From: Pyruvatibacter sp. HU-CL02332
GTDB lineage: Bacteria > Pseudomonadota > Alphaproteobacteria > CGMCC-115125
NCBI RefSeq assembly: GCF_040362765.1
Contig: NZ_BAABWK010000001.1
Coordinates: 372,001 to 436,000 of the forward strand
Direction of reading: 5' to 3'
DNA length: 64,000 nucleotides
In this document: positions 14,478 through 61,811 of the stretch, piece after piece
Layout of the letters: each line of letters opens with the position of its first letter
How positions within the stretch are numbered: the first letter of the stretch is position 1
Translations under genes and position numbers: made by a program
The notes under the pieces: model-generated
Database searches by the model: none
What the model saw: only the letters and a program-made list of their open reading frames with translations
What the model was told of the DNA's origin: nothing

Positions 14478-14612
14478 AAACCACTGCAAGTGGAGCCCCT
14501 GGCCTGCCCTTGGCCGGTTTACTGACATCGAACCAAATTCACAGGAGCGGTAATCGCGAAGCCCGGATCACGCCCGTGCCCCTGCAAAACAGCCAATTTT
14601 TGATAGATATGA

Positions 14613-14986
<374 letters not shown>

Positions 14987-39135: not shown

Positions 39136-39212
39136 TGGTGGGCCGGGCAGGACTTGAACCTGCGACCAATCCGTTATGAGCGGACCGCTCTAACCAGCTG
39201 AGCTACCGGCCC
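39136..39212 (-). tRNA. tRNA-Ile2 (anticodon CAU)
   Basis: On the minus strand a 77-nt cloverleaf: acceptor GGGCCGG paired with CCGGCCC, D arm GCTC-AGCTGGTTA-GAGC, anticodon arm GTCCG-CTCATAA-CGGAT with anticodon CAT, T arm GCAGG-TTCAAGT-CCTGC, discriminator A and encoded CCA. The segment TTGGTCGCAGGTTCAAGTCC resembles E. coli ileX rather than elongator or initiator tRNA-Met, so the anticodon C is probably lysidinylated by TilS to read AUA. Met-elongator identity is the alternative. Confidence 0.9.
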
Positions 39213-56167: not shown

Positions 56168-56186
56168 AATTAGAAGAATTCTAATT
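56168..56186. promoter_or_regulatory. Irr/ICE-like box upstream of the peroxiredoxin gene
   Basis: AATTAGAA-GAA-TTCTAATT, a perfect inverted repeat in an AT-rich island 110 nt upstream of the peroxiredoxin start. The core TTAGAA-N3-TTCTAA equals the iron-control element bound by Irr in alphaproteobacteria, as far as I recall that consensus. Iron- or peroxide-linked control of the gene is inferred. Confidence 0.5.
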
Positions 56187-56296
56187 TGCATCTCACAGAA
56201 GATGCGGGATTCGCCTGCATGGCCCGGCCGCCCTCCCCGGCTGCGGCACCTTCTGTGGTTTTTGATCTCCAAGTTGCTTTTAAGGAGCCACGCATA

Positions 56297-56899
56297 ATGA
56301 CTGTCCTCGTAGGCAAAACCGCCCCGGATTTCACAGCTGCCGCCGTCATGGAAGACGGCTTCATCAAGGAAGATTTCCACCTGATGGAGCACCTCAAGGG
56401 CTCCTACGGCGTGGTGTTCTTCTGGCCGCTGGATTTCACATTTGTCTGCCCCAGCGAAATCCTCGCCTACTCCAACCGCGTCGAGAAGCTGTCGGCCATG
56501 AACACCAAGGTCGTCGGCATCTCCATCGACAGCCAGTTCACCCACTACGCCTGGCGCAACACAGCCCCCAAGGACGGTGGCCTGGGACCGGTCAAATTCC
56601 CGATGGTTGCGGACGTCTCCAAGCAGATCACCCGTGAATACGGCATCCTGCATCAGGATGAAGTAGCCCTGCGCGGGACCTTCGTGATCGATCGGGACGG
56701 CATCGTCCGCCACCAGCTTGTGAATGACCTGCCGCTGGGCCGCAATGCGGACGAGACCGTTCGTATGGTGGAAGCACTGCAGTTCCATGAAGAAGTGGGC
56801 GAAGTCTGCCCTGCTGGCTGGCAGAAGGGCGATGAAGGCATGAAAGACACCGCTGCGGGCGTTGCTGACTACCTTGGCAAGCACGCAGAGGCCCTCTAA
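56297..56899 (+). CDS. Typical 2-Cys peroxiredoxin (AhpC/Prx1 type)
   Basis: Thiol peroxidase of 200 residues from ATG 56297 with a TAAGGAG ribosome-binding site. The peroxidatic cysteine is C51 in DFTFVCPSEI and the resolving cysteine C171 in GEVCPAGW, the arrangement of Prx1/AhpC enzymes. The next gene is trxB, so electrons probably come from the thioredoxin system; no ahpF is seen. An Irr-like box lies upstream. Confidence 0.94.
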   Translation: MTVLVGKTAPDFTAAAVMEDGFIKEDFHLMEHLKGSYGVVFFWPLDFTFVCPSEILAYSNRVEKLSAMNTKVVGISIDSQFTHYAWRNTAPKDGGLGPVKFPMVADVSKQITREYGILHQDEVALRGTFVIDRDGIVRHQLVNDLPLGRNADETVRMVEALQFHEEVGEVCPAGWQKGDEGMKDTAAGVADYLGKHAEAL

Positions 56900-56910: not shown

Positions 56911-57003
56911 CCCTCAATATGGGTCTTGTCATATCCGCGTGATCTACCGCGTCTCTATGGGATGAGGTAATTGATCTTGGAGCGACAAGACCCATGTTGA
57001 GGG
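56911..57003 (+). repeat. 20-bp inverted repeat between peroxiredoxin gene and trxB
   Basis: CCCTCAATATGGGTCTTGTC (56911-56930) pairs with GACAAGACCCATGTTGAGGG (56984-57003), loop 53 nt. The one non-Watson-Crick position is a U-G pair in plus-strand RNA and an A-C mismatch in the opposite RNA, so the structure is favoured in the direction of the two genes. It lies 11 nt after the first stop and 104 nt before trxB. Confidence 0.75.
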
Positions 57004-57107
57004 CACTCATTCGGCTATTATGTCGGCAACCGGGGATTCGCCCCGACCCATCCAAAGACGCCGACACCGTACGCACACCACGACTAAGATGGCGAAAGGC
57101 CCAGAAA

Positions 57108-58088
57108 ATGGCCACCGAACAGACAAAACACGCAAAAGTTCTCATCATTGGTGCCGGCCCCGCAGGCTACACAGCCGCGATCTATGCCGCGCGCGCCATG
57201 CTTGAGCCGGTCATGGTCCGCGGCCTTCAGCCCGGCGGCCAGCTGACAATCACCACCGAAGTGGAAAACTATCCAGGCTTCGCAGATGTGATCCAGGGCC
57301 CCTGGCTGATGGAGCAGATGGAAGCTCAGGCCAAGCATGTGGGCACGGAGATGATCGACGACACGATCATGTCGGTTGACCTCAAGGCCCGACCCTTCCG
57401 CGCGGTTGGCGACGGCGGCGTCGTCTACACCGCTGATTCAGTCATCATCGCAACCGGTGCCCAGGCTCAGTGGCTTGGCCTGCCTTCGGAAGACAAGTTC
57501 CAGGGCTTTGGTGTGTCTGCCTGCGCAACCTGCGACGGGTTCTTCTATCGCGGCAAGAAGGTGGTCGTGGTTGGCGGTGGCAACACCGCTGTGGAAGAAG
57601 CCCTGTTCCTTACCAACTTTGCTGAGCACGTAACGCTGGTGCATCGCCGCGATGAACTGCGCGCCGAACGCATCCTTCAGGAGCGTCTCTTCAAGCATGA
57701 GAAAATCTCCGTCGAGTGGAGCCACGAGGTGGATGAAATTCTCGGCAAGGGTGAGATCCAGGGCGTGACACACATTCGCCTCAAGGACACCAAGTCCGGT
57801 GAGACCAAGGAAGTGGAAGCCGACGGCATCTTCATTGCCATCGGGCACAAGCCATCGACGGAAATTTTCCGCGATCAGGTGGAGATGAAAGACTCCGGCT
57901 ACATCATCACCAAGCCGGATTCGACAGCGACAAACATTCCCGGCGTGTATGCGGCAGGGGATGTGACGGACGAAACCTATCGGCAGGCCGTAACAGCTGC
58001 CGGCATGGGCTGCATGGCCGCCCTTGAGGCTGAAAAGTTCATCGCTGAAAACGAAGCAAATGACACCAAGGCAGCGGCAGCAGAGTAA
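57108..58088 (+). CDS. trxB: Thioredoxin-disulphide reductase
   Basis: NADPH- and FAD-dependent reductase of 326 residues from ATG 57108 (MATEQTKHAKVLIIGAGPAGYTA). The FAD-binding GAGPAGYTAAIYAAR is at 15-29, the redox pair C139-C142 in SACATCDGFFY, the NADPH-binding VVGGGNTAVEEAL follows, and the second FAD segment is GVYAAGDVTDETYRQAVTAAG. It lies 208 nt after the peroxiredoxin gene. A 14-bp hairpin follows its stop. Confidence 0.97.
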   Translation: MATEQTKHAKVLIIGAGPAGYTAAIYAARAMLEPVMVRGLQPGGQLTITTEVENYPGFADVIQGPWLMEQMEAQAKHVGTEMIDDTIMSVDLKARPFRAVGDGGVVYTADSVIIATGAQAQWLGLPSEDKFQGFGVSACATCDGFFYRGKKVVVVGGGNTAVEEALFLTNFAEHVTLVHRRDELRAERILQERLFKHEKISVEWSHEVDEILGKGEIQGVTHIRLKDTKSGETKEVEADGIFIAIGHKPSTEIFRDQVEMKDSGYIITKPDSTATNIPGVYAAGDVTDETYRQAVTAAGMGCMAALEAEKFIAENEANDTKAAAAE

Positions 58089-58212: not shown

Positions 58213-59184
58213 ATGGGCAAGACAGGTCTCAGGATTTTCTTCGGCCTTTGGGCGCTGGCAATGCTACTGGGCGCAGCCTATCTCTTCCGCACACCGCTGA
58301 TGCTGCAACTGGTGAGCCTTGAAGGCGAGCCACCGCTGCTGGACAGGGCGGATGTCGTGCTCGGCGACAAGGAGCTGTGGGCGGACGACTTTTACACTGT
58401 TGAGGAAGTGGGCCCGGGCACGTTCGTTATTGCCGAGCCGCTTTATCATCAAGACGTCCACTCCTATCTGCTGGTCGGCAGCGAGCGTGCTCTGCTCATT
58501 GATACGGGGTCGCCTGCAGGCAAGATTGCTCCGGTGGTTGCCTCGCTCACAGACAAGCCCGTGAGCGTCATCTCCAGCCACCTCCACTATGACCATGTCG
58601 GCAACCACGACGCCTTTGACACGATCCTGATGCCGGACCTGCCGCATCTGCGCGCACGTGTGCCAGATGGTGTGTTCACCCCTACCAGCAACGAGCATCT
58701 GGGATTTGTTGAAGGGTATGACGTGCCAAGCTGGCCGGTTGCGGGCTGGTGGGCACCGAACACCGAATTGGATCTGGGCGACCGCCAGGTAACCCTGCTC
58801 TCGATCCCCGGCCACACGCCGGAGTCCATTGCGGTGTGGGACAAGCGGGCTGATCAGTTCTTCATGGGTGACTATTCAGGCGATGGCGCGATCTATGCCT
58901 TCATGCCCAATTCCAGCCTCAGGACCTATCTGGCCACCACACGGCAGCTGGTCGCAGACCTGCCGGAGACCATCAACATTTATGCGGCCCATGGGGATGC
59001 CAAATCCGGTGTGCCTGTGACAGGCCTCCAGTCCCTGCGCGATCTGGAAACAGCACTGGCTGCCTTTGAAGATGGCACCGCCGAGGGAACAGGGTTCTGG
59101 CCCCGGGCCTTTACCGTCAACGACACCACCAGCATCCTGACGGACCTGCCCGGCCCTCTATCCGCCTCCCGCGACCTACCCTAG
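58213..59184 (+). CDS. Metallo-beta-lactamase-fold hydrolase, membrane-anchored
   Basis: A 323-residue protein with an N-terminal hydrophobic segment (residues about 7-25) that is a signal anchor. The dinuclear metal motif is SHLHYDHVGNH (HxHxDH), with further ligands in SIPGHTPES, FFMGDYSGDG and YAAHGD. The catalytic domain would be periplasmic. Substrate unknown. GGGGGA precedes the ATG. Its 3' end overlaps the convergent HAD gene by 9 nt. Confidence 0.86.
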   Translation: MGKTGLRIFFGLWALAMLLGAAYLFRTPLMLQLVSLEGEPPLLDRADVVLGDKELWADDFYTVEEVGPGTFVIAEPLYHQDVHSYLLVGSERALLIDTGSPAGKIAPVVASLTDKPVSVISSHLHYDHVGNHDAFDTILMPDLPHLRARVPDGVFTPTSNEHLGFVEGYDVPSWPVAGWWAPNTELDLGDRQVTLLSIPGHTPESIAVWDKRADQFFMGDYSGDGAIYAFMPNSSLRTYLATTRQLVADLPETINIYAAHGDAKSGVPVTGLQSLRDLETALAAFEDGTAEGTGFWPRAFTVNDTTSILTDLPGPLSASRDLP

Positions 59185-59853
59185 GCCCAAAAGCGCTGGC
59201 ACCTCGGCCATGTCACCAACAACCACCGCGCCAGCATCTGCAAGCGCGTTTCCATCCGTGTTCGGATCACCGGCATAGCCAATGACACGCATGCCGGCGG
59301 CCATGCCGGCCTGAACACCCGGCACGGTGTCCTCAATCACCACCGCTCTGTGTGGCACATGGCCCATCTGAGACGCTGCAAACAAAAACAGGTCCGGCGC
59401 CGGTTTGCCCTTGGCCACCATCGTTGCGCTGAAGACGGCCTCCCCAAAGTGATGATCAAGCCCGGCACGCCCCAGCACATGCGCCAGATAGTCCGGCTGG
59501 CTGGAGGAGCCGACGCATCGCGGAATGTTCTCGGCTTCGACCCGCGCAACCACATCGGCGACACCGGGAATGGCGGTCACGGTCTCGTAAATGGAAGTGT
59601 GCATTCTTTCGCGGGACCGCTGCACCCACTCTTCAGGAACAGATTTCCCGATTTCATCTTCAATAATGGCGATCGTTGACGGCCACGACAGGCCCCGAAA
59701 CCGGCGATGGCTGTCAGCGGTCGTTGTCGGCCAGCCAAGCTCGCTCACCGCGACCGCGAGCACTTCATTGGCAATCGTCTCGCTGTCCACCAGAACGCCG
59801 TCACAATCAAAGATGACGAGGTCCGGTCGCGTGGATAAGGGATCATGTGTCAT
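59176..59853 (-). CDS. HAD-superfamily phosphatase, beta-phosphoglucomutase-like
   Basis: Cytosolic hydrolase of 225 residues. Motif I is FDCDGVLVDSE (nucleophile D), motif II GSSSQPDY, Lys motif in AKGKPAPDLFLFAA and motif III VIEDTVPGVQAG. The alpha-helical C1 cap between motifs I and II places it with beta-PGM-like and sugar-phosphatase enzymes (YieH/GS1-like). Substrate unknown. Located alone between the metallo-hydrolase and a divergent LysR gene. Confidence 0.88.
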   Translation of the reverse strand: MTHDPLSTRPDLVIFDCDGVLVDSETIANEVLAVAVSELGWPTTTADSHRRFRGLSWPSTIAIIEDEIGKSVPEEWVQRSRERMHTSIYETVTAIPGVADVVARVEAENIPRCVGSSSQPDYLAHVLGRAGLDHHFGEAVFSATMVAKGKPAPDLFLFAASQMGHVPHRAVVIEDTVPGVQAGMAAGMRVIGYAGDPNTDGNALADAGAVVVGDMAEVPALLGLG

Positions 59854-60066: not shown

Positions 60067-60960
60067 ATGGACTGGGACAAGCTGCGCATATTTCATGCGG
60101 CCGCAGAGGCTGGCAGCTTTACCCATGCAAGTGAGCAGCTGAACCTCAGCCAGTCCGCCGTCAGCCGCCAGATCTCCGCTCTGGAAGAATCGCTGGGTCT
60201 CACCCTGTTCCATCGCCATGCCCGCGGCCTGCTGCTGACGGAAACCGGCGAAGTGCTGTATGGCACCACCCGCGAGGTGTTTACGCGCCTGGCGGATACG
60301 GAAAGCCGCCTGCGTGAAACCAAGGGCGAGCCCTCCGGCGACCTCAAACTCACCACCACTGTGGGCTTTGGGGCGAACTGGCTGGTGCCGCGCCTCAAGG
60401 AATTCACTGACCGCTACCCCAAGATCAACCTGCATCTCATCGTGGATGACCGTGAGCTTGATCTGGCGATGCGTGAGGCGGACGTTGCCGTGCGCTTCCA
60501 CCCGCCAGTGCAGCAGGACCTGGTGCAGCGCAAGCTGTTCCGCGTCCACTATCACCTCTATGCCACCAAGGATTATCTGGCGCGCAAGGGCGGCGAGCCC
60601 AAGACGCTTGCCGACATCGATAACCACGACATCGTGGTTTATGGCGATGCAGCACCGGCAGCGCTGCAGGAAGTGAACTGGCTGCAGACAGCGGGCCTTG
60701 AAGATGGCCGGGCCCGTGAGCCGTTTTTCCGGGTGAACAACATCTACGGGGTGCTCAAGGCCGTTGAATCAGGCTTTGGCATCGGTGCCCTGCCCGACTA
60801 CATCATCCGCCACCACCCCGATGTGGTGCGGGTGCTGCCGGACGTGGAAGTCCCCCATTTCGACACGTTTTTTGTGTATCCAGCCGAGCTTCGGGACACA
60901 AAACGGATCACCGTCATGCGTGATTTCCTGCTCGAAAAAGCCCGGGAATGGACCTACTAG
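60067..60960 (+). CDS. LysR-family transcriptional regulator
   Basis: A 297-residue regulator with the N-terminal helix-turn-helix MDWDKLRIFHAAAEAGSFTHA and LNLSQSAVSRQISALEESLGLTLF. The C-terminal ligand domain shows GDLKLTTTVGFGANWLVPRLKEF and ALPDYIIRHH. The WDxLRxFxxxA start groups it with GcvA-like members. Targets are unknown; the divergent gene is the HAD phosphatase 213 nt away. No downstream partner on the same strand. Confidence 0.9.
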   Translation: MDWDKLRIFHAAAEAGSFTHASEQLNLSQSAVSRQISALEESLGLTLFHRHARGLLLTETGEVLYGTTREVFTRLADTESRLRETKGEPSGDLKLTTTVGFGANWLVPRLKEFTDRYPKINLHLIVDDRELDLAMREADVAVRFHPPVQQDLVQRKLFRVHYHLYATKDYLARKGGEPKTLADIDNHDIVVYGDAAPAALQEVNWLQTAGLEDGRAREPFFRVNNIYGVLKAVESGFGIGALPDYIIRHHPDVVRVLPDVEVPHFDTFFVYPAELRDTKRITVMRDFLLEKAREWTY

Positions 60961-61111
60961 GGTCGTTCGACATCCAGCTATCGACAATCTGTCAGTAAAA
61001 TCAGTGCCTTGCGTTTGAGCCAGGGCTGAATCCTGAGCTATGCGTTCAGTGCATGGTTGCTTTGAAGGCAGTCTGCTTGAATGCAGTGCAGCAAAAGCCT
61101 ATTTTTTCGTC
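60961..61111. other. Gap after the LysR gene
   Basis: About 150 nt without a gene. It carries the promoter of the sRNA candidate at its right end and otherwise nothing I can identify. Confidence 0.5.
61077..61105 (+). promoter_or_regulatory. Predicted promoter of the sRNA candidate
   Basis: TTGAAT (61077-61082), 17-nt spacer, TATTTT (61100-61105), predicting a start near 61112. No protein gene follows before the terminator at 61258-61300. Confidence 0.6.
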
Positions 61112-61300
61112 ATCAGCAGTTCACATAACTGCACTCCTTCGAAGCGTCCTCTCCCCAAGACGTTGCTTCGAGGCAGCATGGAAGCCACTCCTCCCCTTGA
61201 GGCTTGCATGCGCCGGTAGCCAGGCACCCCCCCATTAGCCTGCTACCCAAGGACTAGGGCCGGGCCTGCACGAGTAACGCAGGTCCGGCCTTTTTCTTTT
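61112..61300 (+). ncRNA. Candidate regulatory sRNA with C-rich anti-SD loops
   Basis: About 190 nt between a promoter and a terminator. Hairpin 1: GCAGTT/AACTGC (61116-61132). Hairpin 2: CTTCGAAGC with GCTTCGAGG plus GTC/GAC (61137-61173), loop CTCTCCCCAA. Hairpin 3: GCATG-g-AAGCC with GGCTT-g-CATGC (61176-61211), loop ACTCCTCCCCTTGA. Hairpin 4: GGTAG-c-CAGGC with GCCTGCTACC (61215-61247), loop ACCCCCCCATTA. The C-rich loops resemble those of alphaproteobacterial sRNAs (alpha-r14/15, CcsR, GsrN) that pair with ribosome-binding sites. Family membership is not established. Confidence 0.7.
61258..61300 (+). terminator. Intrinsic terminator of the sRNA candidate
   Basis: GGCCGGGCCTGC (61258-61269), 9-nt loop, GCAGGTCCGGCC (61279-61290), then TTTTTCTTTT. 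Twelve pairs including one G-U, with a strong U-tract. The nearest protein gene upstream ends 300 nt before it. Confidence 0.93.
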
Positions 61301-61385
61301 CCGCTGGTTCCTTTCTTGATGCCTCCACATTTTGTTGCCGCATTTCGCCGTGCTGATGCGCCCTGCAACGTGTTTGGAGGCCCCC

Positions 61386-61811
61386 ATGCCCACAGCTGAG
61401 TTCAATGTCCCCTTTGAAGGCGGATGCACCTGCGGCGCCGTGCGCTATATCTGCACGGCGGCGCCGGTGTGGAGTTCGAACTGCCATTGCCATGCCTGCC
61501 AGGCGGGCAGTGGTGCCCCCTATGTGTCGGCCATCTCTGTTCCCGCAAACGCCATCACGATCACCGGTGAGCGGGTGGAGTTCCAACGTATGTCAGAGAG
61601 TGGTCACGGCGTCACAACCGCCCTGTGTGCTCGCTGCGGCACGCGTATCCACGCCCAGTCCCAGGGCAATAAGGTACTGTTGAACCTCTTTGCCTCGACG
61701 CTGGATGAACCGGAGGCCTTCACGCCGATTTCAAATGTCTATGTGAGTGAAAAAGCCCATTGGGTGACCCTGGACCCGGATATCCCGGCCTTTGAAAAAA
61801 TGCCGGGCTAA
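61386..61811 (+). CDS. GFA-family glutathione-dependent formaldehyde-activating-like protein
   Basis: A 141-residue zinc protein from ATG 61386 with a GGAGG site. The zinc ligands are in GGCTCGAVRY, NCHCHACQ and CARCGTRIHAQ, the standard CxCG, CxxC and CxxC pattern of the Mss4-like GFA fold. Family members are mostly uncharacterised; formaldehyde activation is not established for most. It starts 86 nt after the sRNA terminator and is convergent with the MFS gene. Confidence 0.9.
   Translation: MPTAEFNVPFEGGCTCGAVRYICTAAPVWSSNCHCHACQAGSGAPYVSAISVPANAITITGERVEFQRMSESGHGVTTALCARCGTRIHAQSQGNKVLLNLFASTLDEPEAFTPISNVYVSEKAHWVTLDPDIPAFEKMPG

Follow-up and report, generated by a model that had tools for sequence, protein, structure and literature searches.

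Does the DNA between a gene for a LysR-type regulator and a GFA gene in the marine bacterium Pyruvatibacter sp. HU-CL02332 encode a regulatory RNA, and if so, what would control it and what would it act on? We analyzed the locus within its surrounding 64,000 nucleotides (the window) and in related genomes.

A structured RNA is conserved across the genus

The initial annotation read this locus as a transcription unit without a protein, made up of four hairpins and a 12-bp terminator, and our analysis bears this out. A predicted transcript from 61112-61300 on the plus strand is well supported as the product of an undescribed small RNA (sRNA) gene with C-rich loops. Its features are:

61112..61300, plus strand: sRNA of about 185 nt, with its 5' end predicted at 61112 (from the fold and covariation)
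61116..61132, plus strand: 5' mini-hairpin (from the fold), with one compensated pair
61139..61171, plus strand: hairpin 1, with the C-run UCCUCUCCCC at 61147-61156, partly open
61172..61214, plus strand: hairpin 2, with the open loop CUCCUCCCCUU at 61188-61198 and two compensated pairs
61215..61247, plus strand: hairpin 3, with CCCCCCC in an open loop at 61227-61233 and three compensated pairs
61258..61300, plus strand: intrinsic terminator, with a 12-bp stem (61258-61269/61279-61290) and a loop of 9, followed by TTTTTCTTTT

The minimum free energy of 61112-61300 is -87.6 kcal/mol (z = -7.2), and none of 200 dinucleotide shuffles equaled it. Three exposed C-rich loops had been proposed. The loops of hairpins 2 and 3 are indeed open (probability of being unpaired, 0.90 and 0.97), but loop 1 is only partly so (0.66). 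The loop of hairpin 2 includes CCUCC, which is the complement of GGAGG. A scan of the locus for promoters and terminators reported nothing: the terminator loop (9) exceeds the limit of 8, and the promoter falls below the 9-of-12 cutoff. Elsewhere, the minus strand of the window carries a bacterial class A RNase P RNA (14612-14983; 328 bits), and one tRNA lies at 39139-39212.

We aligned the locus across four genomes of the genus: the window and three others, G001 to G003. (One GTDB record gives the name of the genus as Ca. Phaeomarinobacter.) The RNA is kept in all three of the other genomes. In this alignment, standard pairs make up 98.3% of pair cells, and 8 pairs are compensated on both sides, which none of 500 shuffles matched; sliding the alignment destroys the signal. 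The C-runs are nearly invariant across the four species. Comparing homologous intergenic regions, which had been suggested as a check on the structure, showed that the stems and the C-rich loops are conserved among congeners. The transcript has no conserved open reading frame. We rejected the idea that it encodes a small protein, as the four species do not share a reading frame. By DNA similarity and promoter pattern, the organism's own genome has just one such locus.

Could the functional transcript be the minus strand? It would present GGGGAGGA and GGGGGGG in its loops and might act as a sponge for a CsrA-type protein. The minus strand does fold, although less distinctively (z = -2.7). However, the relatives have G-U pairs (for example, columns 73/106, 74/105, and 85/96) that can pair on the plus strand only, which fixes the plus strand as the RNA strand, and the promoter and the T-run terminator are on the plus strand as well. 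We consider a functional minus strand to be highly improbable.

The RNA might also act in cis on the GFA gene, as a leader or attenuator. This gene lies just downstream on the same strand (ATG at 61386), and its ribosome-binding site (61376-61380) is GGAGG, as originally annotated. But a strong terminator separates the RNA from this gene. Furthermore, the GFA gene is found downstream of the RNA only in the window and in G003; G001 and G002 keep the RNA and lack the GFA gene there, so the GFA gene is not part of the sRNA unit. It would be very surprising if the RNA were a leader, and the proposed repression of the GFA gene by the sRNA found no support.

The neighboring regulator is very probably LsrB/VtlR

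The gene upstream of the sRNA had been described only as a LysR gene. Judging by its sequence, it is very probably the orthologue of the rhizobial regulator LsrB/VtlR:

56994..58088, plus strand: trxB, thioredoxin reductase, with a CATCDG motif; two genes lie between it and lsrB
60067..60960, plus strand: lsrB/vtlR orthologue, a LysR-type regulator of 297 amino acids with no cysteine

The protein is 49% identical over 296 amino acids (338 bits) to PDB entry 9HH1, which is LsrB from A. tumefaciens (PMC11975290), and the next PDB match scores just 100 bits. The helix-turn-helix domain (residues 1-65) is 77% identical. When we searched the organism's own genome with the 9HH1 protein (a one-way search), the window's gene was the best of 17 LysR-like places, with 338 bits versus 108 bits for the next LysR. 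Synteny between trxB and lsrB/vtlR has been reported (PMC7486931, PMC11975290). Among 67 orthologues of the window's LysR, 64 have the thioredoxin reductase motif CA[VT]CD[GA] at most 1,500 nt upstream, and none have it downstream. This matches the synteny in the literature and fits the assignment of the window's protein to LsrB/VtlR.

In the window, trxB and lsrB are parted by a metallo-beta-lactamase-fold-like gene (plus strand) and a HAD-hydrolase-like gene (minus strand), at 58213-59853, whereas rhizobia are reported to have trxB and lsrB as a pair. A peroxiredoxin-like gene (56186-56899) lies just before trxB, so a group of thiol-redox genes is close to lsrB. (These genes were named by eye.)

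In the Rhizobiales, LsrB has been described as sensing redox state through thiols. The redox cysteines of A. tumefaciens LsrB are C144, C236, C244, and C273, of which C144 and C273 are conserved in that order (PMC11975290). At these positions, the window's protein has V140 (C144), V233 (C236), A241 (C244), and V270 (C273). The absence of all four suggests that the input signal of LsrB in this organism should differ from that in A. tumefaciens. The lack of cysteine is common: 51 of 80 LsrB orthologues (from the window's gene at 60067-60960 and loci L038-L117) have none. These cysteine-less proteins offer a concrete test case for what LsrB senses.

The sRNA promoter carries predicted LsrB boxes

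Upstream of the sRNA, we found:

61040..61054, plus strand: predicted LsrB box ATGC-N7-GCAT (ATGCGTTCAGTGCAT), at -72 to -58, conserved in four species
61051..61063, plus strand: match to the LsrB/VtlR consensus GCAT-N3-TG-N3-T (GCATGGTTGCTTT), at -61 to -49, conserved in four species
61076..61104, plus strand: predicted promoter CTTGAA-N17-CTATTT, similar to the alphaproteobacterial sigma-70 form CTTGAC-N17-CTATAT (PMC8844928)

A promoter had been noted here, but as TTGAAT-N17-TATTTT; the alphaproteobacterial form fits better. We looked for the boxes with motifs that were known in advance. Their distances are counted from the predicted start at 61112, which had been proposed when the boxes were still unrecognized.

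In S. meliloti, LsrB activates the sRNA AbcR1 via GCAT-N3-TG-N3-T at -61 to -49 (PMC8844928), and it activates the sRNA NfeR1 via TGCA-N6-GCAT at -72 to -57 (PMC10746234). Compared to the NfeR1 box, the window's box agrees in its position and in its GCAT half, but its first half is TGCG instead of TGCA. Each of the four genomes has the composite pattern GCAT-N3-TG ... CTTG ... CTA at the position of the sRNA; G003 has one additional, stray match. As a control, the reversed pattern gave 0-2 matches in each of the four genomes. Both the identity of the regulator and the boxes were missed by the initial annotation; together, they tie the RNA to the AbcR1/NfeR1 circuit.

Might the hairpins be merely the end of the lsrB mRNA? 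They are on the same strand as lsrB, 150 nt behind its stop codon, so they could be a 3' untranslated region and terminator with no promoter or regulatory role of their own. Or, an sRNA could be cut from the lsrB mRNA, as is known of 3'-derived alphaproteobacterial sRNAs such as SorX. However, in all four species, the stop codon and the RNA are separated by a conserved promoter that carries LsrB boxes, and compensated pairs in three conserved C-loop hairpins are more than a plain terminator would need. This makes a 3'-UTR origin unlikely.

It is similarly doubtful that the sRNA is real but has a promoter that LsrB does not control, whether constitutive or dependent on a heat-shock sigma factor. 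Written as CTTGAA-N16-CCTATTT, the window's promoter is also similar to that of abcR2, which has the RpoH1 form CTTGAA-N16-CCTATAT; in S. meliloti, AbcR2 is encoded at the same locus and depends on RpoH1 (PMC8844928). But both LsrB motifs are at their published distances, are conserved in the four species, and are enriched behind LsrB genes.

Similar elements recur behind LsrB orthologues

We collected 80 LysR orthologues, from Sneathiella, Minwuia, Oceanibacterium, Kiloniella, Magnetovibrio, Roseibium, Kaistia, and others, and we tested those with at least 300 nt behind the stop codon. A box, a C-run, and a terminator were found together in 33 of 74 regions downstream of LsrB, from many orders, versus 4 of 1,004 control windows. 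The strict ATGC-N7-GCAT box was present in 26 of 75 downstream regions (including the window's own), versus 1.6% of control windows and 1.1% of shuffles. Either box was present in 38/75 regions, versus 3.6% of control windows. Two or more C-runs were found on the plus strand in 49/75 regions, on the minus strand in 9/75, and in 13.8% of control windows. Because these loci are related by descent, p-values would overstate their independence.

Some of these regions contain recognizable RNAs. Two Roseibium loci have sub-threshold matches to the ar15 family of Rfam behind lsrB (29.6 and 25.7 bits; the gathering threshold is 40). SorX-like RNAs (Rfam; up to 46 bits) lie behind lsrB in Oceanibacterium, Sneathiella, Minwuia, and others, and there are further SorX-like copies in Sneathiella and Oceanibacterium, one of which is above the gathering threshold. 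Judged by sequence, then, a C-rich sRNA of one form or another is often encoded behind lsrB.

In two Sneathiella loci (L041, 4063-4629, and L042, 4060-4659), three SorX-like sRNAs are in tandem behind lsrB. One is above the gathering threshold, and the first two are preceded by LsrB-type boxes. It is possible that the sRNA was amplified at the lsrB locus.

We also built covariance models of the window's RNA. Outside the genus, the model of the body without the terminator (R2) matched at the right place in L073 only (17.1 bits, E = 0.076). Much of the signal of the full model (R1) comes from the terminator, and in the four genome-wide R1 matches outside the genus that we inspected, the terminator alone matched, so we discarded them. 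Because R2 finds one weak match and R1 leans on the terminator, homology of these RNAs across orders is not proven.

LsrB has been called unique to the Rhizobiales, from a small tree (PMC11975290). Its orthologues in other orders, along with their trxB synteny, argue against this. LsrB is paired with an sRNA gene predicted to target Shine-Dalgarno sequences (anti-SD) in Phaeomarinobacter, Sneathiella, Kiloniella, Magnetovibrio, and others, which suggests a module that is both widespread and older. We see about even odds that LsrB is an old alphaproteobacterial regulator, rather than a redox regulator of the Rhizobiales only, whose original output was an anti-SD sRNA encoded right behind it. 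The RNA would have diverged by lineage (ar15-like, SorX-like, three-loop, or tandem copies), and sensing by cysteine thiols would be a later, lineage-specific addition. Also, many candidate sRNAs that the Rfam models miss might be found by their position and their promoter box.

Proposed mechanism and targets

The computations show a structured and conserved RNA, the orthology of LsrB, promoter motifs at published distances, and a recurrent arrangement. In our main reading, the window's RNA is an LsrB-activated and probably Hfq-assisted anti-SD sRNA that acts in trans, like AbcR1 and NfeR1, and it is one lineage's form of a widespread LsrB-sRNA module. We give this reading a probability of about 0.77. 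From it, we infer transcription, LsrB binding, use of Hfq, anti-SD repression, and targets as follows. LsrB, bound to the tandem boxes (-72 to -49), would recruit sigma-70 RNA polymerase, and transcription would yield an RNA of about 185 nt that ends at the terminator. The C-rich loops of this RNA, chiefly those of hairpin 2 (CUCCUCCCC) and hairpin 3 (CCCCCCC), should then prevent the translation of several mRNAs by base-pairing with their G-rich ribosome-binding sites, probably with Hfq. The genome does contain an hfq gene. Reporter assays with AbcR1 and NfeR1 showed that their C-rich motifs act at the ribosome-binding site to silence mRNAs (PMC8844928, PMC10746234). The multi-target repression that had been suggested for the window's sRNA is plausible.

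In rhizobia, the targets are ABC transporters; the targets predicted here are not enriched in them. Using heuristic start codons and gene calls, five ABC substrate-binding genes had no unusual complementarity to the sRNA (percentiles 11-76 of 378 background genes). Elsewhere in the genome, there are eight perfect GGGGAGGA sites before an ATG, and no ABC transporter was among the genes that we read. These include amidohydrolase-like, P450-like, MetW-like, and cytochrome b561-like genes (named by eye).

Comparison with known sRNA families

The sRNA had been likened in its design to known alphaproteobacterial sRNAs. The resemblance to ar14 holds up, but Rfam thresholds, motif tests, and a context test for CcsR do not support membership in ar14, ar15, or CcsR. 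In the suggested covariance comparison with Rfam, ar14 (RF02344) scored 18.5 bits against the window's RNA (E = 0.25; the gathering threshold is 58.8 bits), and ar15 (RF02345) had no match at E up to 10. An ar15 search of 190 genomes, including the organism's own, also gave no match, but the controls were likewise silent, so it is uninformative. The ar15 family was described from Rhizobiaceae and Brucellaceae (PMC3712013), and in the open-licence literature, we found no report of such an RNA outside these families.

SorX (RF02784) has no match in the window; in Sneathiella, Minwuia, and Oceanibacterium, the corresponding position behind lsrB is occupied by SorX-like RNAs. The CcsR or cuckoo RNAs of Rhodobacter share the C-rich anti-SD loops in hairpins. 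However, they are cut from the transcript of the ccaF1 (DUF1127) operon, behind an RpoH promoter, while the window has one RNA with its own predicted promoter, beside lsrB. Reading through the list of open reading frames, we saw no small DUF1127 gene near the RNA; upstream are the LysR gene and then the HAD hydrolase.

NfeR1 from Sinorhizobium (ar14) also has three hairpins with C-rich loops, its LsrB box at -72 is matched in part by the window's box, and the best alignment of ar14 to the window's RNA spans the whole model. But NfeR1 has three identical CCUCCUCCC loops, whereas the loops of the window's RNA differ (UCCUCUCCCC, CUCCUCCCC, and CCCCCCC). Also, the third hairpin of NfeR1 doubles as the terminator, whereas the window's RNA has a separate terminator hairpin, and its gene, unlike that of NfeR1, adjoins lsrB.

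AbcR1 and AbcR2 (ar15; from Sinorhizobium, Agrobacterium, and Brucella) share with the window's RNA a C-rich motif in a hairpin loop (CUCCUCCC in AbcR) and an intrinsic terminator. In Sinorhizobium and Agrobacterium, their genes are also straight downstream of lsrB/vtlR, and AbcR1 has GCAT-N3-TG-N3-T at the same distance, -61 to -49 (61051-61063 in the window, relative to the predicted start at 61112). In AbcR, however, the first anti-SD motif (CUCCUCCC) is in the loop of the 5' hairpin, while the window's CUCCUCCCC is in the third hairpin (hairpin 2 in our numbering). The second motif of AbcR, the linker UUCCCCUC between hairpins, is absent from the window's RNA. AbcR RNAs are 114-121 nt long and come as a tandem pair or in several copies per genome; the window's RNA is single-copy, is about 185 nt long, and has three C-loop hairpins plus a separate terminator. 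In our main reading, the window's sRNA would work like AbcR1 and NfeR1 of Sinorhizobium, from the gene position of AbcR1, yet as a separate lineage form.
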